Source: Ascaphus truei
Taxonomy: Eukaryota > Chordata > Amphibia > Anura > Ascaphidae
Assembly: GCA_036426205.1 (NCBI GenBank)
Contig: CM071568.1
Location: 36,381,499 to 36,445,498, forward strand
Direction of reading: 5' to 3'
Length of the DNA: 64,000 bases
The notes below the pieces were generated by a model, which saw only the letters and a program-made list of their open reading frames with translations, was not told the DNA's origin and did no database searches. Below are positions 4,824 through 53,355 of the stretch, in pieces (within the stretch, counting starts at the first letter, position 1; the number at the start of each line of letters is the position of its first letter). The position numbers and the translations under genes are program-made.

Positions 4824-5510
4824 GCCGAGTTAAGAACATAAGAACTATCAATACTGGATCAGACCAAATATTTCATCAGTCTAGTACAGATGTAGTCAGA
4901 ATCACATTCCCGAAGCTGCAAAAAAAACATTTTGTTTCAGCTCTGGGGAAGGTGACATCCATGGAGGACCATTCTTTCTTATGGGACCCATTTCACAGTA
5001 TTAATCCCAAATGCAAAAGAATGCCAGGGTTACGTTCTCGTGTCATTCCCTGGCAGCGGGAAGAATAAGTCTGACTACATCTGTATTATGTCTCCCCCAA
5101 TGGCAAAAACTGGAAGCTTCGGGATAGGGCAGCAGAGGGCATCACTCACTTCCTACGTCCAGTTGTGGGCATGCTGATATTATCCATGTATAGACTTTTC
5201 CACTACTTCAATAAATCTAATCCTCTTTTAAAGTTATTTGCTGTTACTAACTCCAGTGGTATTGAATTCCAGAGGATGATAAGAAAAAGTGCTTCCTTTA
5301 ATTTATTTTATATACAGACAAAAATAATTCTACTGTGTGTACCCAAGTCCCTATACTTTGTGAATTTGTAAATGTAAGTCTCTTATTAATTTTCTTGGCA
5401 CCAATTGAGATGTTGTACAAATCTATCACATAGTTTTTCTCACTTTCCTTTCTTGCTCTATTGCATCCCTATTCCAGTCTACCCCTTTTGCTCAGCCAGT
5501 TTGATGCTTC
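4824..5510. repeat. Degenerate CR1-like LINE 3' region
   Basis: The wording of this stretch (aagaacataagaact...ggatcagacc, then a cttcaataaatctaatcc motif, a gaattccagaggatgat motif and tgcttcctttaa) resembles the tail region of vertebrate CR1-type LINEs as I remember it. It is heavily mutated and has no open frame of note. A shorter stretch near 11795-11880 carries the same cataagaa...accaaat phrase. Confidence 0.3.
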
Positions 5511-7002: not shown

Positions 7003-7620
7003 CTTAATTATAAATAGCTTGCATTTCCATGTAGTAAACATTTTGTTTTGTGTTGTGGATAGATACAGTACACAACAGACTTCATATACTAAACAAAAAT
7101 GTCTCTTTTTATTCAGGGAATTTGAGGTTTAATTACTCGTGCTATGCTAACACTGCATATGCATAAGAACATATCTATTTAGAGCAGCAGGACACTTTGA
7201 TGTAATGACTGCTATCTGGATAATGATCAAAACTGGTAAAGAAGCATGTGAAAATATGGATAAATAAAATGCCTAATTGACAGCTGTACTTTATCCTTTG
7301 ACAGGACAGCTCCCTTCTTTGCTTGTTCCGAGATTACTGCACAATTGTAAAAGGAAAGTATGATGCGTGCAATTGTCACAGAAAATAGTATTGCATTCCA
7401 CGTTGCTACTTAGTTATTTGATTCTTAATGCAAATTTAAAAAAAAAATGAGAAAAGAAAGCATTTTTACATCAGTCATTTTTTGCTATAAATACTGCAAT
7501 ACTCAATGACATATTATGCGTAAATATTATTGCACCTGCTTAATTAAAATATACATTTAAAAGGCAAGTCACAAAATTAAACGCAGTAGATCTTTTATTG
7601 TCTCGTTAGTGGTTGCAATC
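7003..7620. other. AT-rich sequence before the LINE insertion
   Basis: I see nothing coding. The open frame of the LINE runs by chance through the left target-site duplication into this DNA. Confidence 0.5.
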
Positions 7621-10600
7621 AAAACAGGTTGGTCTAAATTACATTCCCTTATCTTAAACCACAAATCTAATCCCGACTCACAAACAACTCATGATCTAAA
7701 AGATACAAAAATTGAACTAAACATGCTATTGACTTCCAGAGCAGATAACTCCCTGAGTTGGTCCAAGAGGAAATTCTATGAAAAAGCTAACAGGCCGGAT
7801 ACGATGCTAGCTCGAGCTTTAAAAGATAGGCAATCTAAGTTTAACATCCAAGCTATACGCTTAAAATCAGGCATACAAACAGCCAACCCCAAAAAGATAG
7901 TAGAAGAATTTGGTTCATTTTATAGTTCCCTATATGATGGTAAGAAAGTGGCACATAATATCAACACGAGCAGAGCTCTAAGAGATTTCTTAACCAGCTC
8001 AAAGATAGAGAGATTGACAGAGCAGGACAAAGAGGCCCTGGGCGCCGACTTCACATTGGAAGAAGTGTCTCAGGCCATCAAAGAACTTAAACCATCAAAG
8101 GCACCAGGACCAGATGGTTTCTCGGGGCTATACTATAAGAAGTTTTCAAATTCACTAGCCCCACAGCTGCTCCACATGTTCAACGCTATACTAGCGGGAG
8201 CCCCAATCCCCGAGGATATGCTGCGGGCGTCTATATCTCTAATACACAAACCTGGCAAGGATCCGCTGAATTGTAAAAGCTATAGGCCAATTTCCTTAAT
8301 CAATACCGATATAAAAATATATGCTAAATTGTTGGCCAACAGATTAAGTCTAATCCTACCCAGACTAATACATCCAGATCAGGTCGGCTTCATCAAAGGA
8401 AGACAAGCAGCGGATAACACCCGACGATTTATTGATCTGCTAGAATTGGCAAATAAAAATAACACTCAAACTATGCTATTAAGTCTGGATGCTGAAAAAG
8501 CTTTTGATAGGATCGACTGGCCATACTTAAAAGAGACGCTAGCAGCATTTGGCTTCGGGGATAGGGTGAGCGGAGCGATTATGTCGCTGTACTCAAGCCC
8601 ATCCGCTAGGGTTATATATCAGGGCTTCCCCTCACTTCCATTTCAAATTCAAAGCGGCACAAGACAGGGGTGCCCTCTATCTCCCCTCCTGTTTGCCCTA
8701 TGTATCGAACCACTGGCAGCACGCATCCGAGATAATACTGATATCTCAGGGTTAAACGCATACGCTCAATCCCATAAAGCGGCCCTGTATGCAGATGATA
8801 TCTTACTAATCATTTCAAAACCCCTCACTTCATTACCAAATCTATTTGATCTACTAGACAAATTCTCCAAAATCTCTGGGTTTAAAATAAACCAATCCAA
8901 ATCTGAAGCTCTGAATATCAATCTCCCTAGACATACGGAAAAACTATTGAAACTAAATTTCAAATTCAATTGGCAGAAGAAGTCTATAAAATACCTAGGA
9001 ATTCATATCACCAAAGATGCAAAAAGCATCTACAATGCAAATTATCCCAACCTAATTTGGACGTTGAAACAGGACCTAATCAGATGGTCTTCCAAGAAGA
9101 TTTCTTGGATAGGTAGGATACATAGCGTTAAAATGAATCTACTTCCCCGTATCCTATACCTCTTCCAGACACTACCAGTGCCACTCAAACTGAAGGATAT
9201 ACTCTCACTTCAGTCTGCAATATCTAACTTTATCTGGAACGGAAAGAAACCGAGAGTAAATAAACTGAATATGAAAAGACCTACCTTAGCTGGCGGCTTG
9301 GCGGTACCCTGCCTGTTAGCATACTATAAAGCGGCTCAATTAAGTCATATTATTCAATGGCATTCTGACCCTACATTGAAGAGATGGGTAGAATTAGAAA
9401 GTGCCGCGTGCTCTCCATTAGAGCTCAGTAGTCTGATTTGGTTACCTAAATTAGCGAGGAAACCCGCTACCCTGCCGCTCACCTCAATGACCAACTCTCT
9501 ATCGGTTTGGGAAGCAACTAGAATTAAAAACTCACTCACATCAAGATGCTCTTTGATGTCCCCTATTTGGAACAACCCGAATTTTGCACCGGGCCTAATT
9601 GGTAACAACAGTTCTATCTGGAAACTAAAAGGATATAATAGACTCAAAGATTTGGAAGGATACAACCTAAAAATCAAAACATTCGACCATATCAGACTAG
9701 AAAAAGACATCCCCCACACAGAATTCTATAAATACCTCCAGATAAGAGCATTTTACAACAAATCCGCCCCATACCCTCCCCTGACAAATTTCGAAAAGCT
9801 CTGCCGGGTAGAAACCGACACTAAGGGACTTATATCTACGATTTATGGAGAGGTAGTCGAGTCCGCTACATCTAAATTGCAAACCCCTTCATTCCAAAAC
9901 CAATGGGAATTAGACCTAGGGGAGACCTTAAAGGAAGAAGATTGGAACTCCATATTTTTAGCCACTGCCAAAAGTTCCATATGCACAACACTGAAGGAGA
10001 ACGCATATAAAGTCCTAATGAGGTGGTACCTCACCCCACTCAAATTATCTAAGTTCGCTCCAGGGTCCTCCCCACTGTGTCCCAAACAATGTGGAGGAAC
10101 AGCTGACCTGTTACATATGCTGTGGTCTTGCCCTCGGATCTCCCTAGTTTGGGAACAAATTAGGAATTGGATCCAGAGGATTTTTGACCTCTCTATTCCC
10201 CCAGACCCATGGCTGTTTCTCTTAAACAGACCAGTAAAAGGCCTATCAAAATCGCATAATAAACTCATTGCACATTTCGCAATAGCAACGCGGTGTGAGA
10301 TCGCAGCACTATGGAAACGCCCCGAAGTTCCAATTATCCCAAAGATTCGGAATCGTATTTGGTTTATTTGCCAGATGGAAAAATTAACTAGCTTAGTTAA
10401 TGACACTGGCGACAATTTCCTAAAAGTCTGGACCCCTTGGCTAGCACAGACAGACATCCCCGGGGTAGAGCGTGACACAATTTGGCTATGATAGCAATAG
10501 ATGCGTTCTCCTACAGAGAGGTGAAGCCCATTTCCACAACAAATACCTCACACAATATGAGTTCGCTCATATATACCTTTCCTTAGCTACTGCGGCTATT

Positions 10601-18011: not shown

Positions 18012-19143
18012 CGAGAGAAGATAGAGGCTGACATAGCGGGGATACATCATTTGCTCAGTGTTCAAGCCCCTGTTTCCCCGACGCCGGAGCAGGAGGGTGG
18101 CATGGATGTGATGAATGGGAGCATCGACCACCTTCCATCACCAAGCGCACCCCCTCCACCAGAAGATTTTGTGTACATGTATGCCATTGAGGAGGACATG
18201 ACAACCCCGTCACGACCACGCCAGGAGACAACGCGGTGACCAAGACAGGAGGAAAGCTTCCTCCCAGCGAACCTACCCTTGCCCGCCGCCACAAGCACAC
18301 CCGCTCACAGAAGACCTACATTCGCTCGCATCAATACGATGCCTGACATCATCCTGCGCGATATGCCACCGGCACTAATGGAGATGTATAGGGTGATGAG
18401 TGCTGGTGCACCCCACAAGTATGCCTTGTTAATTTTTAAGAGAGGAATATTGAGGTAGAGTCCCTCAATAACTAGTGCTGCAGAGCATTTGACCCACTTG
18501 AGGAGATAAATTACTGCATCCGGATCACTTGTTGTAATGAAAAGCTGTGTGGAGCTATATGATTAACCCCTAGTTGGAACACGGTCTGGCAAGGATAAAA
18601 AGGGATGTCTTGGGGGAAGTCCTGAGACCCACCCAGACCCCTTATATAAATCCAGCAACAATATGATCCAGTGAACCTGGGGAAGCTCCCACTTTCAAAT
18701 AGTAATCATAATGTACTCACATAAGTCCATTTTTCATCCGGGTCTGTGTGCTCCTTGCTGTATATGGATACAAACGAAATCACCCTTCCCAAGGTGAAAG
18801 GTAGATCAGCGGGCACAACAATGCAGGAAAGAGTTGCAAAAGGCTGGACTGGGCTATCTTGCGCGATATGCCACCGGCACTCAGGGAGAAGTATAGGGTG
18901 ATGAGTGCTGGTGCACCCCACAATGATGTACTTCGACTGGGCCTTCAAAGTGAACTACGAAGGAAATCGCCTAAAAAAGGCGCTTCCTGACAATTTAAGA
19001 AAGTCCATTCTGGATGAATTGCGGCGCTTTTTTTCAATTACAGATCCTGTAATGAAAGGCGTTCGAGACTGCATTAATGGCATTTTGCGCCATGCAAGGC
19101 ATTGGCCATGGAAGGACAATCTGGTGGAGTACGCATTTGAGTG
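18012..19143 (+). pseudogene. BEN-domain-like repeat protein, copy 1 (broken)
   Basis: This is a partial copy of the gene at 48005. 18012-18236 encodes IEADIAGIHHLL, a Pro-rich linker (LPSPSAPPPPED) and DMTTPSRPRQETTR, then a stop. The reading continues recognisably to about 18,440. A block of about 440 bp then interrupts the gene and is bordered by a ~64-bp duplicated gene segment (18355-18418 and 18861-18924). The C-terminal domain resumes at 18940-19143 (FKVNYEGNRLKKALP, then GVRDCINGILRHAR). Differences from the 48-kb copy in that domain are mostly conservative (D/E, L/V, I/V, F/Y), a sign that the family evolved as protein. Function unknown; DNA or chromatin binding would be the guess from a BEN fold. 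Confidence 0.65.
18355..18924 (+). repeat. 64-bp direct repeat flanking an unknown ~440-bp insert
   Basis: gcgcgatatgccaccggcac and the following ~44 bases occur at about 18355 and again at about 18861. The insert between has no recognised family and no TIR that I could find. It could have come from duplication plus insertion, or from a junction of two gene copies. Confidence 0.6.
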
Positions 19144-19618: not shown

Positions 19619-19790
19619 CCTGACTGACTGTTCTGCACACCATCCCACTGTAAATGTTTTGACTTGCAGTTCTTTAATAAACGAAACACCTGCAAGTCGC
19701 ATTACTGAAGCGCATGCGCATTACAATTCATGAATATCTACCATCTGGCGGACACGCGAAGAATTGCAACCTATTAAATCCGAACCATTC

Positions 19791-20911
19791 TCAATAAACG
19801 CATGAACCGCGCATCAACCGCGCATGACCCGCAGCTGAGAACGCAACATGAATGCGGCATGCACCCGGTGAAGTGCGTCGCATTCGGAAAACAATCCAGG
19901 AAAAATGCGGTGATGTTTTAGAATAAAATGGGCTGCACCAGTACACTCCACTCTCAACTGCAGGGGAAATTAAAAAAGAAATAAAACTGTTTGCTTCATT
20001 AGGAAAAACATGATCTATAAAACATGGGTATAAAAGATCAAGAACCTGACTTGGCAGTTTATCAATAAAATCATGCAAACATTTCTCAACAAAACGAATT
20101 GACCTAATGTGAAGCAATGCAGCCACCTGTTGGGGACATTTCCAAGAACATTTCTGAAAATCAATGAGATGACACACTTTAGTTAACCCAGCCCTGACAA
20201 ACGTACAGATAAGACTATGATGTTTGAAGTACTGAGAAGGAAATAAAGGATTAAAAAACAAGAGCTCCTGCAAAAAGCCAAGAAATGTGCATTTCACCAC
20301 GTTCAACTTTTACCATTTTCCAAGCATTAAAGAGACCTTTATAAAAAGGAAGGTAAACTAGTATCATCATAACCAACAGGGTCCATTAAAAACAATTGCC
20401 TATCATATCCAAACCCCCCCACTCTATGAAAAAGGGCAAAAGCAAAATTTCTCCAGACTAACTCGCTCTCACAAAATAACAATCTCTGAACCGCCGGTAA
20501 ACGAAAAGCTGTCACACGACTAATTAAGTCTTTGAGTCCCTTTCCACTCTCAGCCAAAGGTAAAAATAACACACACTGCTTTAACCAATGGTTACTATCC
20601 AAGAAATAAAATCCAAAATACATTTCTGCATTGCCTCAAGTAGGCCTGCAGGAGGGTCAAGGCACACAAATTTATGGTACAACTACTAGATTATTAATCA
20701 CCAGCACCCTTCCATGGAAAGACAACTGAGGACGCAACCAGAGCAATTTCTTCAACTTTGCTTTCACTTTTTCTTGTAGTCTTTCCCAGTTCTTCAGCAC
20801 AAAGGCATCACTCCCCAGAAAAGTACCCAGGACTTTTATACCATCTCTATCCCACTTCAAATCTGCAGGTAAAAAAAGTGGATTACAACCAAGCCAGCTA
20901 CCAACTAACAA
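19791..20911 (-). pseudogene. Tx1-like LINE ORF2, C-terminal part (broken)
   Basis: Three minus-strand frames are consecutive parts of one Tx1-type ORF2 C-terminus. 20911-20672 has PADLKWDRDGIKVLGTFLG and SFHGRVLVINNLV (the thumb region after the RT). 20623-20339 continues with NHWLKQCVLFLPLAESGKG. 20306-19791 is the last part (VCHLIDFQKCSWKCPQQVA). The shifts between the frames show loss of function. The RT core should lie upstream at about 21 kb and beyond, but unrelated DNA is there instead. The ORF1 and endonuclease start of the same element are found at 23.4-25.4 kb in the same direction. Confidence 0.8.
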
Positions 20912-23700: not shown

Positions 23701-25400
23701 TTTAATCTTTTGCAATAACTTATTTAAACGATACCATTTTTGTTTATCAATATCTAACAGAGAACCTTTCTTCAAAATAAGATTCACTGAGTCCACAAAT
23801 AACCTGAAGTCATGGAAATAATCCTGCACTAAAACACCCCGCCTGCTGGTTAAGGAAATCCTTAATCTCAGTCAGATAATACTGATAGCCCTTAAAAGCC
23901 TGAGTAGAGGGAAGGTCAGAAAACTGTGAGTTATCTGTAGCATACTCATATTCTTCATCGTCCGAAGACTCAGATACATCACTTTCTGCTCCCACAAAAA
24001 CTATTTTTGAAGCATTTGATTTGTTGGATACTGCAGACAGACAGACTTATTCTGTGTATTGCTGTGTAAACAGACAAGGTGAAGCTTCCAACTCAGATTT
24101 TTCCTCCACACCAATGCAGGGCTGCAGAGCCAAGCTAGTGGTTGCCGCTGGCAGTGAATTTTTCTCCATTCTTAAAGCATTTTCAATATGACAAAAAACA
24201 CTAGATGGCGCTCTAACTCTCCCAATAAGTGCTCCCATTGACCTGCACTATGGTTTTATCTTTCTTTGTCCGAGACTGCTGACTTTACTAGCTACACCAT
24301 CCAGGAACATCACTACTACTGGCTGGATCATTGCTTCTATATTTCTACTATATTGTGAGTAGGAAATGGAGCGCCCTTATTTATTTTTCACTGTGTTTAG
24401 CATTATTGCACTACAGTATGTAGATTTTTTTCTTTTCATATGGCATCCACCTTCGCTCCCCCAGGGTTTGGTGAGATCAAAGCATTTTCAGGCAGATTAT
24501 CAGTTAAAATATTCACTGTGTTAGCCATTTTTTCCCGTTGGCCCAGACTCATCTGAAAAAGTGGCCTCAGCAATTTCAGAGATAAGAGCAGTACTTTTAG
24601 TTACCTCGAGAATTCTTTCATCTTCCTCCTATTCTAAAACTCTCTTCTTGCTAGTATTTTCACACTCCATGTCGTCACAGTCAGCTGCACGCTGCCCTGT
24701 TGCACCAGTCTGTGCTTTTTCACGCGCCATTTTTTCAATGTCTTTTCCATGCTGCCTTATAACAGCAGTCTGCGCCGTGGTACCTTCCACAGTGTCCACC
24801 TTACTGCGTTCAATAACAACAATCTGTACATCTCCTACAGTATCCTCCTCACTCTGCCCTGAATCAGCAGCCTCTGCTTTCTCCTCACCTGCATCTTTTT
24901 TGTGACCAGTACCATTCTCACTCTGACCTTTTCTAGTATTCAAATTAGGGCAAGCGTGTTTCAAGTGACCAATTTCCCCACACTCAAAGCACTTCATGGA
25001 CTCAGTGCTCGCATACATCACATAATCAAAGCCCTCAATGTTATGTTTCAAAACCAGGTCTAAACTTTTCACAGATTGATCCAAAATCATAAACACCTGC
25101 CTCCTGAAAGACATAACATATTTAATTTCAGCTTTTTTGCACCCCAAAGGAATCATTTTAATAGAATAAATAATTCTACCATAGCAAGAAAAATCCTGCA
25201 TTAACTTCTCACTACTTACAAATGGGGGAACATTAGACAGAGTAACTTTAACTGATAGACTTGATAAAGACAGAACATTAAACAAACAGCCATTAATCTG
25301 TAACCATTGCTCAACAACCGAATGTACAAGTGCAGTACTACTCAAAAAAACTACTACAGCTGTATTCATTCGGAAGCTGATTTAATATTCTCAACACCTA
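23701..25400 (-). pseudogene. Tx1-like LINE ORF1 (gag-like, CCHC zinc knuckle)
   Basis: The minus-strand frame 25369-24629 (246 codons) is an ORF1 protein. It has a conserved region with KVTLSNVPPFVSSEKLM and KYVMSFRRQVFMIL. A zinc knuckle follows, CFECGEIGHLKHACP (C-x2-C-x4-H-x4-C), then a charged Glu/Lys-rich tail. It would bind element RNA in a ribonucleoprotein. A C-terminal piece (DSVSESSDDEEYEY-type acid run, then FKGYQYYLTEIKDFL) lies at 23995-23730, separated from the first by about 230 bp of foreign-looking sequence at 24,240-24,470 and several frameshifts. ORF2 follows downstream, the usual LINE order. Confidence 0.75.
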
Positions 25401-32484: not shown

Positions 32485-34273
32485 CTGAGAGCCAGGGCCG
32501 CCAACAGTGGGGGAGAAAGGGTACTGGCGTCCCGAACCCCGTGGGTCAGGGGGCCTGGCCGCCCGGGCCCCCTGCGCGGCTGGGCGCCAGTTAATTAAAT
32601 ACATTTAAAAAAATAAAAAAAAGTTTTAAAAAATGGCGGCGATTCCCCCGCGGTCCCAGCGCGCATGCACAGGGCCCGCTCCCCCCGCTCCCAATGTGGG
32701 ACGGAAGGGGAAGTACCAGCTCCTCCTGCGGCCCCACCCCGCTCCCAACGTGGGACGGAGGGGGAAGTGCCAGCTCCTCCTGCGGCCTGCTTGCTCCCGC
32801 GGTCAGCTTCCCGTACTCCCCCCGAGCCCACCTCCCGTGGCCCCCCCACCCCGGAGCCCAACTCCCATTACCCCCCCCCCCGAGCCCACCTCCCGTTCCC
32901 CCAAGCCCACCTCCCCTCCCGGGCAGCTACTGCAGGGATATCAGGGGCAGGAGGGGAAAGAGTCCGGTGGAAAGCTGCACCCACCCGGTCAAGGTAAGTC
33001 ACTGTCACCCACTGTTACCCACCCAGTCACTGTCACCCAGTCACTGTCACCCACCCAGTCACTGTCACCCACCCAGTCACTGTCTCCCTCTCACCCAGTC
33101 ACTCTCACCCTGTCACTCTCTCCCACCCAGTCACTGTCACCCATTCAGTCTGCCACCCACCAAGTCACTGTCACCCACATAGTTACTTTTACCCACCCAC
33201 TGTCACCCACCCAGTCACTGTCTCCCATCCACCCACCTAGTCATTGTCACCCTCCCACCCACCTAGTCACTGTCAAAGTCACTGTCAAAGTCACTGTCAC
33301 CTTCCCAGTCACTGTCAAGGTCACTGTCACCCAGTCACCGACACCCAGTCACTGTCACCCAGTCACTGTCACGCAGTCACTGTCACCCAGTCAATGTCTC
33401 TCACCACCCAGTCAGTGTCTCCCACCCACCCAATCAGTGTCTCCCACCCACCCAGTCACTGTCATCCACCAACCCACTGTCAAGGAGTCACTGTCATCCA
33501 CCCACCCAGTCACTGTCATCCACCCACCCACCCAGTCACTGTAATTCACCCACCCAGTCACTGTCATTCACCCACCCAGTCACTGTCATTCACCCACCCA
33601 CCCAGTCACTGTCTCCCAGTCACCAAGTCACTGTCTCCTACCCACCAAGTCACTGTCACCCAATCACTGTATCCCACCCACCCATCGTGATTCACCCACC
33701 TACCCACAGTCAACATTGACCCACCCACTGTCATTTACCCACCCACCCACTGACATTGACCCACCTACCCACTGTCATTCACCCACTCACCCACTGTCAT
33801 TCCCCCACCATCATTCACCCACCCACCCACCGTCATTCACCCACCCACCGTCAATCACTCGCCCACCCACCGTAAATCACCCGCCCACCCACCCACCGTC
33901 AATCACCCGCCCACCCACTGTCAATCACCCACCCACCGTCATTCCCTCACCCACCATCATTCACCCACCCACCGTCATTCACCCAACTGTCATTCTACTG
34001 TCATTCACCCACCCAATTATCCACCCATCCACTCACCCACCCATGCATACAGTCACATGTCTTTTGTTGAAAATATAAAAATAAATAGGTGCATTGTAAT
34101 GTTTTTTTCTGTATCACAATAAGAAAACAGTTAAGTAAAAGTTGCACGCTAAAATATATTTTTTTGTGGTAGGTGCGCTATGGGTTCGGGGGGGGGGTAC
34201 GCTATGGGTTCGTTACCTGCTCCTTTCATTTGTCCCGGGCTCCATGATTTCTGTTGGTGGCCCTGCTGAGAGC
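32485..34273. mobile_element. hAT-type non-autonomous transposon with 8-bp TSD
   Basis: The 8-mer ctgagagc occurs at 32485-32492 and at 34266-34273. Directly inside are the termini cagggccgccaacag (32493) and, read from the other strand, cagggccaccaacag (from 34265), matching at 14 of 15. An 8-bp duplication and CAGGG ends define hAT. The 1.77-kb body carries no transposase. Its left third is GC-rich (CpG), most of the rest is a minisatellite and the last ~180 bp is unique. Confidence 0.88.
33000..34050 (+). repeat. Minisatellite (cactgtcacccacccagt)n inside the hAT element
   Basis: About 1.05 kb of degenerate units of cactgtcacccacccagt and shortened forms (cacccaccgtcatt). The plus strand is almost free of G. 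Unit length drifts from 18 to about 12-22 bases, and the motif changes gradually from cccagtcactgtca to cccaccgtcattca going right. The 303-codon frame at 32633 and its overlaps are translations of this array. Confidence 0.92.
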
Positions 34274-44075: not shown

Positions 44076-45421
44076 ACTGAGCATGGCAATATATATTTAA
44101 AACCAGAGACAGAACATGAAACACAGACAGAGCCCAGTGCTACATCCAAAGACACAAATACACAGTACAGTGCCTATATATATACATATCCACATATACA
44201 TATCCACATATATATGTATGTATATATATATATATATGTAGAGGTATCAGTACCGTGTTAGCCGAGCTTCAATAATCAAAAAATAAATAGATGATACCGT
44301 TCTGTGGCTAACTAAATGCTTTTATTTGTGCGAGCTTTCAAGATACACTGATCTCTTCTTCCGGCGATGTTACAATGAATGAAGCAAGCAAAAGCTATAC
44401 TATAAACAGTGTCTATTGGAATGTTATCTGTGCTGGTCCTTCCCCCGGTGTGGATGTGTTTTATGGCTGGAGGTGTCAAAAGGTTCCTGAAAGCAAGTGA
44501 TGAAAGAGTGTGTATGTGTATCAGTGTGAATTAACATGAATGGAGAGCCCACAGTATATACAGTGCTTTACAAAAGGTGTGTGTGTGGAGTGGGAGCGGA
44601 TATAAATGGTGTGGGTGGGAGTGGAAATGTGAGAGTTAGTAGCATAACTAAAAGTGTGTGTGGATACTATGTGGTCCCTATTGGTGTATAGGGATGGAAA
44701 ATCAAGGAGTATAAGTATGTGTGTTCCTGTGTTGTTGCTGTTGCTGTTGTTACCTGATTTCTTCAAGCATTTAAAACTACCAGAAAAACTTTGCACATTC
44801 ACAGAAGGATTGGACTGGCTATTTATTTGGCAATTTGCAAATGGACTACATTTTAAAAGACAATCTTCTGGTGCTTTGCAACTTTCTGGACATTATCCTC
44901 TGTTTCTCTACCCGTAAGTGTAATTATTAAGTTTATTCTGCAGTTGTCGTGTGTTTGCCTATCAAGGGAATAAATCTCAGTTTATTTTGCTCAACCTGTT
45001 CTGCTCAATCAGGATCCACGAAATATAAATGTGTTATTAAATGCGTCTCCCTTGACAAGCGTGTTTTTCCATCCCTATAAACCAATAGGGACCACATAGT
45101 ATCCACACACACTTTTAGTTATGCTACTAACTCTCACATTTCCACACCCACCCACACCATTTATATCCGCTCCCACTCCACAGACACACCTTTTGTAAAG
45201 CACTGTATATACTGTGGGCTCTCCATTCATGTTAATTCACACTGATACACATACACACTCTTTCATCACTTGCTTTCAGGAACCTTTTGACACCTCCAGC
45301 CATAAAACACATCCACACCGGGGGAAGGACCAGCACAGATAACATTCCATTAGACACTGTTTATAGTATAGCTTTTGCTTGCTTCATTCATTGTAACATC
45401 GCCGGAAGAAGAGATCAGTGT

Positions 45422-45477
<56 letters not shown>

Positions 45478-46744: not shown

Positions 46745-47130
46745 AAAAACAGAGTGTGAGACAGACACAGAGAGAGGGTGAGAGAGAGACAGAGAGAGAG
46801 GGAATGAGAGAGACAGAGAGAGAGAGAGAGAAAAATAAGAGAGAGAGCAAACCAGGCGCTCGCGCGGAGAGAACCAACAGAGCGAGCGCGCTCGCAAAAA
46901 ACCGCCGGCAAGCGCCCAGACCCGCAAGCAAAGAGGCGCGCCGAGATAGGCGAGAGAAACCCGGCGCGAGGGCCGGCGCAACCGCGCGGGGCACGGCGTG
47001 TCGTTCGTCACCCCGACGACCCTCTTCTCTTCACACCCCTCTCTCATCTCACCCCCTTGTCCTCTCTTCTCTCTCTCTCTCGCATAACACTCTCTTCTCT
47101 CTCTCTCCTCTCTGTCTCTCTCTCTCTCCT
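46745..47130. repeat. GA-rich / CpG-rich / CT-rich block
   Basis: A purine run (46753-46850) and a pyrimidine run (47038-47130) flank a CpG-rich core (46855-47020, with gcgagcgcgctcgc). The arms are roughly complementary by composition, so the block could fold back. The 226-codon minus frame across it is repeat-driven. Confidence 0.75.
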
Positions 47131-47139
47131 GTTGTACTA

Positions 47140-47425
47140 TAAATATAAATATACAAAATAAATATACTGTTGTAAAATAAATATAAATATACATCCTATA
47201 TATACCGTTGTAAGATAAATTGAAATATACAAAAAATGTATACTGCTGTACTATAAATATATATAGACAAAATATATATACTGTTGTACTATAAATATAA
47301 ATATACAAAATAAATATACTGTTGTAATATAAATATACATCCTATATATACCGTTGTAAGATAAATTGAAATATACAAAAAATGTATACTGCTGTACTAT
47401 AAATATAAATAGACAAACTATGTTG
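47140..47425. repeat. Tandem duplication of ~147 bp
   Basis: catcctatatataccgttgt and the sequence after it recur at about 47191 and 47338, with further degenerate tactgttgtactataaata units around them. Confidence 0.85.
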
Positions 47426-47562
47426 TAATTTAAATCAACAAAAATAACAACAGTATTACAGTAGATACTGAACTGGACTGTAGGTGTACTGTACTGTATA
47501 AACAGTACAGTACGTACAGTTTTCTATATTTTTTTTTTGTTAGGTTTTCTAAATATACTTAC

Positions 47563-47750
47563 GCGTTTGTTACCCTTGGTGCCCTTTTCCGGTCTCTGTT
47601 TTTTCCGTATGCATGATAGCTCACGGTGTTTGATGGCACAACGAGGCCAGAAGTAGCTAACCATCATTGGATAGCAGCAATTCGGTGTCCGCTAGTGTAG
47701 ATCTCCTTAATTCGCATGCTGAGATCCTTTGAAATCTTTTTAACAGGCAT
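47563..47750 (-). pseudogene. Helix-turn-helix exon, divergent partner of the BEN-like gene
   Basis: Starting at the minus-strand ATG (47750) the frame reads MPVKKISKDLSMRIKEIY, then SGHRIAAIQ, a TGA stop at codon 29, then WLATSGLVVPSNTVSYH and a basic KNRDRKRAPR end. It closes at a good splice donor, CGC|GTAAGT (47562-47557). The DLS..I..IY..G..I..IQ.WL......P...TV pattern is the paired-type helix-turn-helix seen at the N-terminus of transposases of the Tc1/IS630 kind. The stop is most simply a CGA-to-TGA CpG decay. Later exons were not found; the 147-bp tandem repeats start just beyond. It would be the DNA-binding start of a transposase or regulator. This is inference from one 62-codon exon. 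Confidence 0.5.
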
Positions 47751-48004
47751 TGCTGCGAGTAGAAAGAAATACAAACACAAGAATGTATATTCGATGTTTA
47801 GTCGATGTGTATTCTATGTGCAGTCAATACACAAAATGGATGGTGTATTTATACAGTACGGTAATGACTCACATTAGAGTACGCCCACTTTCAACACCTG
47901 TACCTGGTCGCCATGCATAAAAGGTCACAAACTTTGCATAACCCACCACTCCATGATCTTTATCTGTACTTGCACTTGTCCAGTGCATTGTGCCACCTGC
48001 TTCC
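47751..48004. promoter_or_regulatory. Probable bidirectional promoter with two opposed TATA boxes
   Basis: Only 254 bp separate the two divergent start codons. On the minus strand tataaata (47853-47846) lies 96 bp ahead of the HTH ATG. On the plus strand cataaaag (47916-47923) lies 82 bp ahead of the BEN-like ATG. The two boxes are 62 bp apart and point away from each other. Confidence 0.5.
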
Positions 48005-49351
48005 ATGGAGCAACCCCGGTTCTATGGACGCAAGAACCCACTCACCTCTGCCGTGCCTGTCAAGCTGAAAAAGCGAAAGGCGGTTGCCGTTTCCATGCCT
48101 TCTGCTGACCCCAAAGGTGAAGGGTTTTCTTAGACGTAAGCCTCATTATGTGAAGAAGATATACGGCGATGTACTCTCGACACAAAACGATTGGAAGCCA
48201 ACCCATCGAATCCGCAGACCACTTCCTCCCATATGCTTCGACGACTCTGCTGTAGCTGTCCCGGTAAACTTCAGCCCGTCTTCTCCACCCCCATCTTCTC
48301 CGGTTCCATCTGACGACACTGCCGCCTCTGAAATCCATGGGTCACTGTCTCCTTTGCTCTTGGACGACTCTGCTTCTCGCCCGGAAATCCAAAGGTCACT
48401 TTCTCCATCCCTCTTCGATGACGCTGCCGCTTCTCCTCTACCGGGTATCCTCCACTCTCCCTCGATGCCGCTTCTGTCCATGGAACCCCCATCTCATCCT
48501 CTGTTGCACCCATCCCCCCAGATGTCCAGACGCCATGCACAAGAAGCAGCTCGTTAGACCGGATGCTGAATGGGATAAGTGTGGATCTCCCCGGGAATTC
48601 TATTGTGCTGGCAAAGATAGATCTGCTTCTGGAGACAATGGTAAATGTGGAGCAACGGATGCTACAAATGGAACAACGGATGGATCGATGGATGGAGAAG
48701 ATAAAGGCTGACATTGCGGGCATACATTATTTGCTCGGTGCTAATGCCCCTGTTTCCCCGATGCCGGAGCAGGGGGGTGACATGGATGTGATGAATGGGA
48801 CCTTCGACCCCCTTCCATCACCAAGCGCACCCCCTCCACCAGAAGATGTAGTGTACATGTATGCCGTTGTGGAGGACATGACAACCCCGTCAAGACCACG
48901 CCAGGAGACAACACGGCGACCACGACCGGAGGAAAGCTTCCTCCCAGACAACCTACCATTGCCCGTCACCTCAAGCACACCCGTTCCCAAAAGACCTACA
49001 CCCGCTCGCATCGAAACGGTGCCCGACATCACCCTGTGCGATCTGCCATCGAAGCTCAGGGAGAATTATAGGGTGAAGAATGCTGGTGTACCCCACAAGT
49101 ATGCCTTGATAATTTTTAAGCACCATGTTCCCTACTCGTTGTACTGCGAGTGGGTGTTCAAAGTGAACTACGATGGGAATCGCGTAAAAAAGGCGCTTCC
49201 TGTCAATTTAAGGAAAAACATTGTAGAAGAAATGCGGCGCTTTTATCCAGTTACAGATCCTGTAATGAAAGGCGTTAGAGACTGCATTAATGGTGTTTTG
49301 CACCATGCAAGGAATCGGCCATGGATGGAGAATGTGGAGGACTTTCAGTGA
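48005..49351 (+). pseudogene. BEN-domain-like protein gene, copy 2 (two frameshifts)
   Basis: Three overlapping frames give one protein of about 440 residues. 48005-48130 reads MEQPRFYGRKNPLTS and a KLKKRKAVAV basic stretch. 48084-48557 reads FLRRKPHYVKKIYGDVLS, then Ser/Pro-rich repeats of an SLSPLLLDDSA type. 48563-49351 (262 codons, start MLNGISVDLPG) has a probable coiled coil (LAKIDLLLETMVNVEQRMLQ onward), then the linker LPSPSAPPPPEDVVYMY, and near residues 178-255 a domain with FKVNYDGNRVKKALP, RKNIVEEMRRFYP and GVRDCINGVLHHAR. The spacing of KKALP..LR..I...M.RF.P.....RDCIN..LHHAR fits a BEN domain, a DNA/chromatin-binding fold. Small shifts near 48,110 and 48,480-48,560 break it. The second copy at 18 kb and its divergent HTH partner point to a mobile element. 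I do not recognise the family. Confidence 0.65.
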
Positions 49352-49560: not shown

Positions 49561-49637
49561 TGACTGACAGTGTTGCGCACCATCCCACTGTACTGTATAC
49601 AGTACTGTGTTTCTTTAATAAAGGAGATGTTACTTAA

Positions 49638-52046
49638 AATGCTTCAACATTGCATTTGTAAATAAATGTTATTGAACTGACTGCACCAATAAAAGAACAT
49701 ATTGATTTGTCTTACTGTACTGTACATTGTTTCCATTTGCTCCTTTGATAGTAATGTATAACAAAATACAGTGTTTCTAGAATGTCGAGGCTTGCTGCAC
49801 TGTTTTTTTACTGCCTGATCGTGCAATTGGCGTGGGAACTAGGTCAATTGGCGTGGGAACTTCTGTTCTAGGGCACCTAGATTAAAAATTCATTTTGCCC
49901 CTAGATGTTAGGAACCCCCTCACTTCACCCCAACAGGGTCCAAGCAGTAATGGCGGCGAGAAAGGGTCACGCCGGCGAGGAGGGTCCTACCATTGAGCGT
50001 AATGGCGGAGAAAGCTTTGAACCGGCTAAGTCAGAATGAGCAGAAACCTGGAACCCACAACTCCGGTTCTGTTCAACCTATAGGTCTCAGATTCGGTCAC
50101 CATGTAGTCCTAGTTGCGGCAGGATTGCATGGCAAATTGTGACCCTCTCTTGGCAACAGAACGGAGTCAGGGTAATGTTAAAGTTTAGGTTTCTGCCAAT
50201 GACTTGCATGGCAGAAAAAAAGCCACTTTGGTAATGTGCTTTTAAACTGTCTTTTGGTATCTCCGGTTCCGGGGGTCGTGCAAGGCTTATATTTTGCCAC
50301 TATGGCAAGGGTCCTTCCGCATGAGGACCAGGCGAATTTCAACCCGCTCAGACCCACAGAACGGATTATTTTAAATTATATTTATATATTTATATATTTT
50401 TATTTTAAAGATATTAAAGAATGTACTGTATTGTATTTAAAACATGTGACGGTAAACCATACTGACTGACAAATGTTTTCACACCCTGATGAAATATCAG
50501 TTTACTCTCAATTCTCACAGTGCTGTGCACATCAGATTTACATTTCAAATTCGAGAGGGGATTTTCCAAAGCGTTACCGTTAACAAAACAGGCCTCTAAG
50601 GGTTGGGGGAGGGGAACGGTGTGATTAGATGCAGGTGTACTGAGTCTTTGTATCTCGGCTATGGGCGGATTAAGAACACAATGGCAATATGCAGAAGATT
50701 AACGACCCAGTGGAGAGAGGGGGTTGGTTGGATAGGATGACTCAGCCGATTGACGCTTGGCTAGGGAGGGATTAAAAACTCTGGAGGTGTGTGGCTGAAA
50801 TAATTAACTGCACTGTAATTTCAAAAGGCAGTTCATCATAATAATTTTATGAATAAACCCCCAAATACAACCCCAAATACAGTACATAAAAAGCAAGTCA
50901 CTTTAACTCCCTGTGCCCCATGCACCAAAAACAAACAGTAGATTATATATATATATGTATATATATTATAAATTAATATTCATACAGTATAAACGTCCAT
51001 TTTTCATGTATCTCCATGTTTTACAAATGTTTTGTAAATGTTTCTCCGATTTCAATCTGCCAGAAGAATGTAATAAAGGCTGCAGTATGTATTATTGTGT
51101 GTTGATGGTTAGAATTGCTGTGCGCTTTAAATGTTTCAACATTGTACAGTATTTGTAAATAAATGTTTTTGTACTGACTCCACCAATAAAAGAACATGTT
51201 GAATTGCCTCACATTGTTTCCATTTGCTCCTTTGACAGTGTAATAAATGTACTGTAGAGGCTTGCTGCACTGTTTTTTTACTGCCTGACCGCAAAGCTGC
51301 AAGATCGGCAACATTGTAAAACAAGAGCAACGAGCGCGCAATTGGCGTGGGAACTAGGTCAATTGGCGTGGGAACTTCTGTTCTAGGACACCTAGAGTAA
51401 AAATTCATTTTGCCCCTAGATGTTAGGAACCCTCTCACTTCACCCCAACAGGGTCCAAGCAGTAATGGCGACGAGAAATGGTCACGCCAGTGAGGAGGGT
51501 CCTATCATTGACCGTAATGGCGGAGAAAGCCGCGCTGCTTTGAAACGGCTAAGTCAGAATGAGCAGAAACCTGGAACCCATAACTCTGGTACTGTTCAAC
51601 CTAGAGGGCTCAGATTCGGTCACCATGTAGTTCTAGTTGTGGCAGGATTGCATGGCAAATTGCGACCCTCTCATGGCAACATAACGGAGTCAGGGTAATG
51701 TTAAAATTCAGTTTTCTGCCATTGACTTGCATGGCAGAAAAAAAGCCACTTTGGTAATGTGCTTTTAAAATGTCTTTTGGTTTCTCCGGTTCCGGGGGTC
51801 GTGCAAGGCTGATATTTTGCCACTATGGCAAGGGTCCTTCCGCATGAGGACCAGGCGAATTTCAACCCGCTCAGACCCACAGAACGGATTATTTTAAATT
51901 ATATTCGCGCAATTGGCGTGGGAACTACTTAGGGCCTCGGTCAAGTTCACGGCCAATTGGCATGGGAACTTCTGTTCTAGGGCACCTAGAAATAAAATCC
52001 ATTTTGCCCCCAGATGTTAGGAACCCCCTCACTTCACCCCAACAGG
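49638..52046. repeat. ~1.5-kb tandem repeat (two units and a partial third)
   Basis: The block 49638-50385 (aataaatgtt..tgactgcaccaataaaag; gcaattggcgtgggaac; aggaaccccctcacttcacc; gtaatggcgg; to cggattattttaaattata) recurs at 51128-51905 with a shift of about 1,470-1,515 bases. A third, shorter start follows at 51906-52046. Between the two lies 50386-51127, present once. No domain can be read in any frame, although gagcgtaatggcggagaaagc resembles part of a gene. It may be the tail of the BEN/HTH element or a satellite-like derivative. Confidence 0.8.
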
Positions 52047-52387
52047 GTCCGAGCATGTACAGTACTGTACTGTAAAATAAATTAAATATGCAATTTTACT
52101 ATTACTGCGTGCGCACGCACGCACAGACTGTGTACTGACGTAGGTTAAACCGCGAAGGTATTAGAATTCAAAGACAACAGCTCGCAAACGCCCCCATGCA
52201 TTTTTACACGGCATTGCAGAATTGCAGACAGCGGGAATAAAATGCTTAAATCACGGGCGCGAAAATAACGCAATACACTCCGGGCGAAAACGACACAAAA
52301 CCGCACATAACCGGGATAATCTTAAATTCGCGGAGGTAGCCGAGTTAGAATAAAGTTGGTCGCCACTGTAACATCAACACGCGGGTG
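52047..52387. other. CpG-rich stretch before the PLE
   Basis: gcgtgcgcacgcacgcacag and a row of scattered CpGs. It has the same character as 19700-19880 after copy 1. No domain. Confidence 0.35.
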
Positions 52388-53355
52388 CATTTCAAGGATG
52401 TGACGGTTAACAGGTATCTTCACTCGACGAGCAGCCATCACTCAAAATGGTTACAAAATATCCCCCTGAGCCAGTTTAATAGGTTCAGGAGAAACTCCTC
52501 GTCAGAACACACATTTGAAATGCAGTTGTGTCATCTAATTGACAACTTTAGACAAAAATGTTACAATCACAACATTATACAGGAGTCCTTCAACAAAGTT
52601 AGAGCAACTACGATTTGCTTATGAAATCAAAATTGAAGAATTCAGTACAGACATCCCAGTCTCAAAATAGGAACACTTTTGAGGATAGTGTGAAATTTAT
52701 TACCAAATTTACCGGTTATTCAAACAAAATTAAAAATATTGTTAACAGACATTGGAAAGTTTTGCTTTCAGATCCCCACCTTAAAGATCAACTTTCCCCT
52801 ACAGCACCCATCATCTTTCGTAAAGCTATGAGTATCAAAAATCTAATAACACCAAGCAAACTCAGCAATACTGTTCAGATTTTGGGAAATTATCAGCTTG
52901 TAAATGGGAATAGGAAATGTGGTAGATCAAGGTGCATTACATGCAGACACCTCCTAATGTCTGATACATTTACTTCACATAGTAATCATTCGGTGCATCA
53001 ACTCAAGAGTTCTGTCAACTGTTTATCTACCTATGTTGTGTACCTTTTCTCCTGTTCATGTAACATCATATATGTAGGTCGCACCAAAAGAGCACTGTGT
53101 GTCAGATTTCTTGAGCATAGACGAGCTACTATCAAGGGGGTTCTGGCACACTGTGTTCCTAGGCATTTTTCTCAAGCGCATATAAAAAATCCCAGTGAAT
53201 TTAAGATTATGGGTATTGAGACTACTCCTGAAACAAAATTGGGTGGTGATAGATTCAAAGCACTATGTGTCAGGGAATCCTTCTGGATTTATTCCCTTGA
53301 CACGCTCTCACCCAAAGGTTTAAACGAGTGTATAGATACGAGCACACAGGTTTGA
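52388..53355 (+). pseudogene. PLE reverse transcriptase end and GIY-YIG endonuclease
   Basis: 52388-52621 reads YLHSTSSHHSKWLQNIPLSQ, then FNRFRRNSSSEHTFEMQ, the thumb region of a PLE RT. A one-base shift near 52615 leads into a 246-codon frame: RHWKVLLSDPHLKDQLSPT, then IIFRKAMSIKNLI, then the Cys cluster CGRSRCITCRHLL. The GIY-YIG core is YVVYLFSCSCNIIYVGRTKR with the following helix RFLEHRRATIKG, and the domain ends at RESFWIYSLDTLSPKGLNE. PLEs use this nuclease to open the target and the RT to copy their RNA there. Apart from the one frameshift the nuclease frame is open, so this copy is fairly young. The RT palm with its catalytic Asp residues is missing. Confidence 0.82.

Follow-up and report, generated by a model that had tools for sequence, protein, structure and literature searches.

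The divergent gene pair at positions 47563-49351 of the window, i.e. of the whole 64,000-nucleotide stretch of the Ascaphus truei genome that was analysed here, most probably constitutes the core of a large transposon of the Tc1/mariner superfamily (probability roughly 0.85 for anatomy and superfamily jointly). As read from its copies, the element comprises a gene for a DDE transposase in five exons, a divergent gene for a 465-aa coiled-coil protein and a forkhead gene near one end, enclosed by imperfect terminal inverted repeats (TIRs) next to TA.

The divergent gene pair in the window

The opposed start codons, i.e. the ATG of transposase exon 1 at 47750 (minus strand) and the ATG of the second gene at 48005 (plus strand), are separated by 254 bp, so that two units point apart as stated in the original prediction. 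This intergenic stretch (47751-48004), which can be aligned in 21 copies, presumably serves as two-way promoter and contains the two opposed TATA-like boxes that had also been proposed. Of these, GTATAAATA at 47854-47846 (minus strand), facing the transposase gene, is intact in 18 and CATAAAAGG at 47916-47924 (plus strand), facing the coiled-coil gene, in 17 of the 21 aligned copies, among which the window copy is counted. Exon 1 (47563-47750, minus strand) encodes an N-terminal helix-turn-helix (HTH)-like part, to judge by its translation and by 83% identity across the exon to the public protein P0005, and is present in 21/21 copies, as is the good splice donor attributed to it, GTAAGT at 47557-47562 (minus strand). 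The HTH coding unit of the original prediction is the first exon of a transposase gene, but in the window it is interrupted by a TGA at codon 29. The donor is followed by a remnant of intron 1 (47129-47556, minus strand) with a ~38-bp minisatellite, identified by alignment to the copies L010, L016 and L020.

The coiled-coil gene (48005-49351, plus strand), whose product had been called BEN-like, was predicted to encode ~440 residues. In the window it is no single open frame, as alignment to the open copy L010 reveals that 38 and 13 bases have been deleted at two sites, with a shift of frame in each case, and the list of open reading frames shows it open from 48422 to 49351; in L010, however, the frame is open over 465 aa from the ATG. 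Further to the right lies an arm with subterminal repeats (49628-52024), which matches the right arms of L016 and L020 at 88.6-89.1% identity and, compared with the left arm found in whole elements, is inverted. On its right side the copy is closed by a left-type TIR (52344-52368, minus strand), recognized by an exact match of 27 bases where 0 would be expected; TA comes directly after it (52369-52370). On the left, homology to other copies ends at ~47129, and thus transposase exons 2-5 are absent from the window copy; likewise, a tblastn search with P0005 found exon 1 only in the window. With a TGA in exon 1, two frameshifting deletions and neither exons 2-5 nor the forkhead gene, the window copy is dead and truncated.

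The second copy of the BEN-like part that had been noted elsewhere in the window was recovered as a partial, diverged copy of the coiled-coil gene. It consists of a first piece (18015-18440, plus strand, 87.6% identity to L010) and a C-terminal piece (18860-19128, plus strand, 76.2% identity to L010 across the piece), and a diverged right-type end follows at 19667-19943 (plus strand), with which the right end of L010 shares 79.2% identity.

Several other features were observed in the window. An open frame of 976 aa at 7561-10491 (plus strand) with a reverse transcriptase domain (RVT_1, 8.2e-42) represents an L1-like non-LTR retrotransposon. At 24632-25381 (minus strand) an open frame of 250 aa includes a CCHC zinc knuckle (3.8e-4) and possibly encodes a retroelement Gag-like protein. 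Another open frame of 250 aa (52603-53355, plus strand), which lies immediately to the right of where the element ends and has weak likeness to GIY-YIG (E 0.087, below the cut-off), may be the terminal part of a Penelope-like element. Two inverted arms of 363 nt (44342-44704 and 45062-45424), 99% complementary and 357 nt apart, are a young foldback or MITE-like element, and a minisatellite of CACTGTCACCCACCCAGT-like units occupies 32978-34011.

Dispersal of the unit

Using 47563-49351 as DNA query against the 2.82-Gb assembly (19235 contigs) of which the window is part, we obtained 5645 candidates at first look and scored 40 of them. In 33 of these 40 places, the window itself among the 33, the match extends over the entire unit to within two bases, and the full-unit places other than the window are 90-93% identical to the query. 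Dispersal of the unit, as originally proposed, is therefore confirmed, and both frames are parts of a single mobile element instead of being unrelated repeats that lie side by side by chance. Twenty copies were fetched with their flanks and three of them were extended; as these are best matches, the sample favours intact copies. Four copies (L010, L016, L020 and L019) could be traced to both ends, and rearranged copies, e.g. L009 and L012, exist as well. Protein relatives were found for the coiled-coil protein (n=3), exon 1 (n=1) and the forkhead protein (n=1), all labelled Ascaphus truei; the search, which reaches similar-length proteins sharing exact 5-residue words, returned none from outside Ascaphus.

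The transposase gene

Exon 1 alone has no Pfam match, and a search with its residues yielded P0005 (255 aa) as single relative. Past exon 1, P0005 exhibits weak Tc1-type matches (HTH_Tnp_Tc3_2, 0.0011; DDE_3, 0.052; both under the cut-offs), and its residues 64-116 and 116-200 map by tblastn to the left of exon 1, beyond the minisatellite intron. Inspection of the sequence added two more exons, in which the second D and the E are encoded, giving five exons in total. All four introns are GT-AG and in phase (L020/L010), the first two joins matching the public gene model P0005. Of the 20 fetched copies, 18 can be aligned over exon 2, 17 over exon 3, 17 over exon 4 and 16 over exon 5; all four exons are absent from L013 and L017, and L009 has a stray exon 2 only.

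The joined protein of 329 aa matches DDE_3 with 1.7e-15 (57.6 bits vs a cut-off of 28.6) and has the catalytic domain of Sleeping Beauty as best relative in the PDB (2.5e-13). Its acidic residues are D150, D233 and E266, 32 residues separating the second D and the E, and HTH_Tnp_Tc3_2 scores 18.5 bits at a curated cut-off of 31.5. Hence, the HTH exon does lead leftward into a longer spliced open reading frame, and from the two relationships originally suggested, i.e. Tc1-like or Harbinger-like, the former is borne out by the DDE_3 nuclease, the TA flanks and the TIRs. PIF/Harbinger elements are characterized by a Harbinger-type nuclease, a Myb-like partner and a 3-bp target site duplication (TSD). 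This assignment was rejected since the nuclease is of the DDE_3 type, neither a Harbinger nuclease nor a Myb model is among the matches, and the ends are flanked by TA.

In the intron-1 minisatellite the FOX-type motif RYAAAYA occurs at a count that 0 shuffles reach in three of four segments and 5/200 reach in the fourth; as such an excess is trivially produced by a tandem repeat it was not used as evidence.

Ends, inverted arms and core orientation

Pairwise comparison of the three extended copies revealed common outer limits. Left ends read TA-CAGTGGCGACCAACTTTATTCTAAC and right ends, on the reverse strand, TA-CTGCTGCGGCAGCTTTTATTCTAAC; the TIRs that had been sought on collected copies are thus present, though imperfect, with an inner TTTATTCTAAC common to both ends. 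In the 21 sequences searched TA precedes 12/12 left-type ends (≤3 mismatches) and 6/7 right-type ends (≤2 mismatches); 7 extra end matches with 5 mismatches, including the ends of a related short element (see below), were set aside. The whole elements are 10487 (L010), 10484 (L016), 11027 (L020) and 8319 bp (L019) long. As to the TSDs that were also sought, three of the four are flanked by TA at either end, L020 having no TA on the right. Comparison of the four joined flanks with the fetched copies and the window gave no match clearly across a junction, i.e. no empty site.

The core is surrounded by inverted arms of about 1.46 kb with 94.6% identity in L016. The 17-bp motif CAATTGGCGTGGGAACT (≤2 mismatches) occurs 10-12 times per element in L010, L016 and L020, often 21 bp apart, and is found exclusively on the minus strand in the left arm and exclusively on the plus strand in the right arm. 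In L019 the right-type end and the forkhead gene are located left of the core and the left-type end right of it, and in L018 and L021 the forkhead gene is on the left, too, indicating that the core occurs in both orientations. The window copy, the left part of which is lost from ~47129, carries a left-type TIR at its right end, as in the flipped form. The simplest cause would be a flip of the core by recombination between the inverted arms.

The forkhead gene

A third gene lies outside 47563-49351, between the core and the right end, and is usually convergent with the coiled-coil gene. In L010 it is an open reading frame of 193 aa from the first ATG, near the right end and in convergent orientation. 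The protein contains a forkhead domain (PF00250, 6.2e-15, 55.5 bits vs a curated cut-off of 27) and its best PDB match is FOXL2 (1.7e-9). In the alignment the W-Q-N-S-I-R-H of FOXL2 corresponds to W-K-R-A-V-R-K in the element protein; in FOX proteins that Asn and His contact DNA bases.

A genome search with the forkhead protein gave 18213 candidates, possibly including host FOX genes, and 99 of the best 150 scored places have no stop. A forkhead place is located within 9 kb of a coiled-coil place in 13 of the 90 scored coiled-coil places, both lists being composed of best-scoring matches only, whereas 0.086 would be expected, and therefore the element includes the forkhead gene. Eleven of the 13 pairs are convergent (arrangement A) and two show the mirror arrangement (B); 17 further units from the unit search added four pairs (two A, one B and one fitting neither). 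Some elements, the window copy among them, have no forkhead gene in the fetched stretch or a broken one. A diverged relative, P0008, which is known as protein alone, shares 58% of 154 aligned residues with the forkhead protein and has a conserved C-terminal end, but did not match Pfam Forkhead at 0.01.

The forkhead gene of L016 harbours a short element of ~400 bp, about 4927-5328 right of unit base 1. It is 96.8% identical to part of the L010 flank, its ends are related to those of the large element, and it is probably a non-autonomous relative.

The coiled-coil protein

The coiled-coil protein gave 22184 candidates in the genome, and 49 of the best 90 scored places have no stop. Scanning viral contigs with P0001 confirmed no viral relatives. 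The C-terminus of the protein had been designated BEN-like, and a diverged BEN domain is indeed conceivable, as by eye, and in the register of hhalign, this region parallels frog BEN domains (Y-x-G, KKxL, YP, C-x-x-x-N). None of the searches added to this likeness, however. Neither the whole protein nor pieces of it had a Pfam match, the cut-off of PF10523 not being reached, and the PDB, searched by sequence and by profile, returned no BEN chain at the limits used. The search for PF10523 across the whole genome resulted in 19 candidates and 13 matches, none of them at the listed unit, forkhead or coiled-coil places. Against four frog BEN domains hhalign gave a probability of 0.5% and a P of 0.12, the domain-only score of 12.8 was within the range of 60 column shuffles (maximum 20.2), and in hmmsearch against frog BEN domains the first 12 rows were all shuffles. 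The AlphaFold2 model (pLDDT 38.7) was too poor for use. We thus regard a BEN domain in this protein as doubtful. As by-product, the PF10523 search uncovered a BEND3-like open frame of 745 aa that contains four BEN domains (L035-L038; G000:C11422:56518-58152).

Selection

Relative to the majority sequence of each gene, pN/pS is 0.66 for the transposase (bootstrap 0.56-0.80; 21 rows, some without certain exons) and 0.74 for the coiled-coil gene (0.66-0.85; 21 rows), and 1.20 for the older copy of the coiled-coil gene in the window. The values for the transposase and the coiled-coil gene indicate purifying selection within the young family, in a set of best-match copies that favours intact ones. 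For the forkhead gene, pN/pS is 0.71 (0.41-1.54), i.e. indistinguishable from 1, in 7 of 11 rows, L016, L017, L025 and L028 having been dropped as badly aligned, and selection on this gene is unproven. Indels amount to 0.31 per kb in the coiled-coil gene and to 52 events in 5776 aligned bases in the intergenic stretch; this contrast is not pressed, as the intergenic stretch may contain a repeat-prone site that raises its count.

Discussion

With Tc1, Sleeping Beauty and Traveler the Ascaphus element shares TA flanks, short TIRs, a DDE_3 nuclease of ~330 aa and the motif NPIE, and with Frog Prince and Passport, for which a CAGTG tip is quoted, it shares CAGTG at its left tip (available part of PMC7093834). 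Tc1/mariner elements are generally 1.3-2.4 kb long and have one gene (PMC7093834), encoding a single transposase of ~340 aa (PMC7093834, PMC7325037; available parts). In contrast, the Ascaphus element is 8.3-11.0 kb long, has a spliced transposase gene, two extra genes and long inverted arms, and its D-E spacing is 32. As this differs from the 34 of the DD34E/Tc1 family, and is none of the spacings named in the available parts of PMC7093834 and PMC7325037, we file the element under the superfamily only.

Elements of other eukaryotes offer parallels by description. The ciliate elements Tec and TBE are of the Tc1/mariner type with three open reading frames and a DD34E transposase; Tec has long TIRs, one frame in the complement and a site-specific recombinase, and TBE a zinc finger protein (available part of PMC7325037). 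The Ascaphus element resembles them in having several open reading frames, but that text names a recombinase or zinc finger protein rather than a forkhead or coiled-coil gene. TET/JBP elements of fungi are DNA transposons with a captured non-transposase gene (available part of PMC12730594), as in Ascaphus, although the gene is another one and the host a fungus; this, too, is a comparison by description. The forkhead protein is like FOX transcription factors in its winged-helix domain, which scores above the Pfam cut-off, and in its best PDB match, but differs from them in being encoded within a transposon and in the altered W-K-R-A-V-R-K segment. The original prediction knew of no described transposon with this gene pair, and we found none in the open-licence literature either. 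The open-licence full texts searched likewise yielded no DNA transposon with a forkhead gene: 'forkhead' and 'mariner' are absent from a review on giant eukaryotic transposons (PMC6431247), and the available parts of PMC12477816, PMC10175614 and PMC12822217 do not describe such an element.

Most likely the transposase would, like others of its superfamily, bind the TIRs and cut and paste the element at TA. The forkhead and coiled-coil proteins probably would act as accessory DNA-binding, regulator or end-bridging factors, either at the shared promoter of the element or at the phased subterminal motifs; that they have such an accessory role is a tentative proposal, to which we give slightly less than even odds.

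The forkhead gene might instead be passive cargo, i.e. a piece of a host gene that was caught once between the core and one end and was amplified by hitch-hiking. A pN/pS indistinguishable from 1 is in line with this, as are the several elements, including the window copy, in which the gene is missing or broken, but the 99 of the best 150 scored forkhead places among 18213 candidates that are free of stops speak against it, as does the diverged P0008, which, although known as protein alone, retains 58% identity over 154 residues and a conserved C-terminal end. We consider passive cargo plausible, if somewhat on the improbable side. That core and forkhead part are separate elements, nested or adjacent, is very improbable: the same two ends enclose both in L010, L016, L020 and L019, and where 0.086 pairs within 9 kb would be expected, 13 were counted, of which 11 share one arrangement and two show its mirror, even though some copies have no forkhead gene within the fetched stretch, rearranged copies such as L009 and L012 occur and one pair among the 17 further units fits neither isomer.

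Returning to a single element with accessory genes, we speculate that a vertebrate lineage of Tc1/mariner captured, and depends on, forkhead and coiled-coil genes for DNA-binding proteins, that the altered recognition helix reads element-specific sites, and that the element of ~10.5 kb has a core that flips between its inverted arms, a scenario we hold at a little under an even chance. If true, an animal would harbour a multi-gene DNA transposon that regulates itself, a departure from animal Tc1/mariner elements, which are generally described as short and with one gene (available parts of PMC7093834 and PMC7325037). The element, of which one genome has at least 150 forkhead places, makes it possible to test whether a DNA transposon can carry and use a transcription-factor-like regulator of its own, and it would also supply repeat-derived forkhead-like genes and binding sites to the frog genome.
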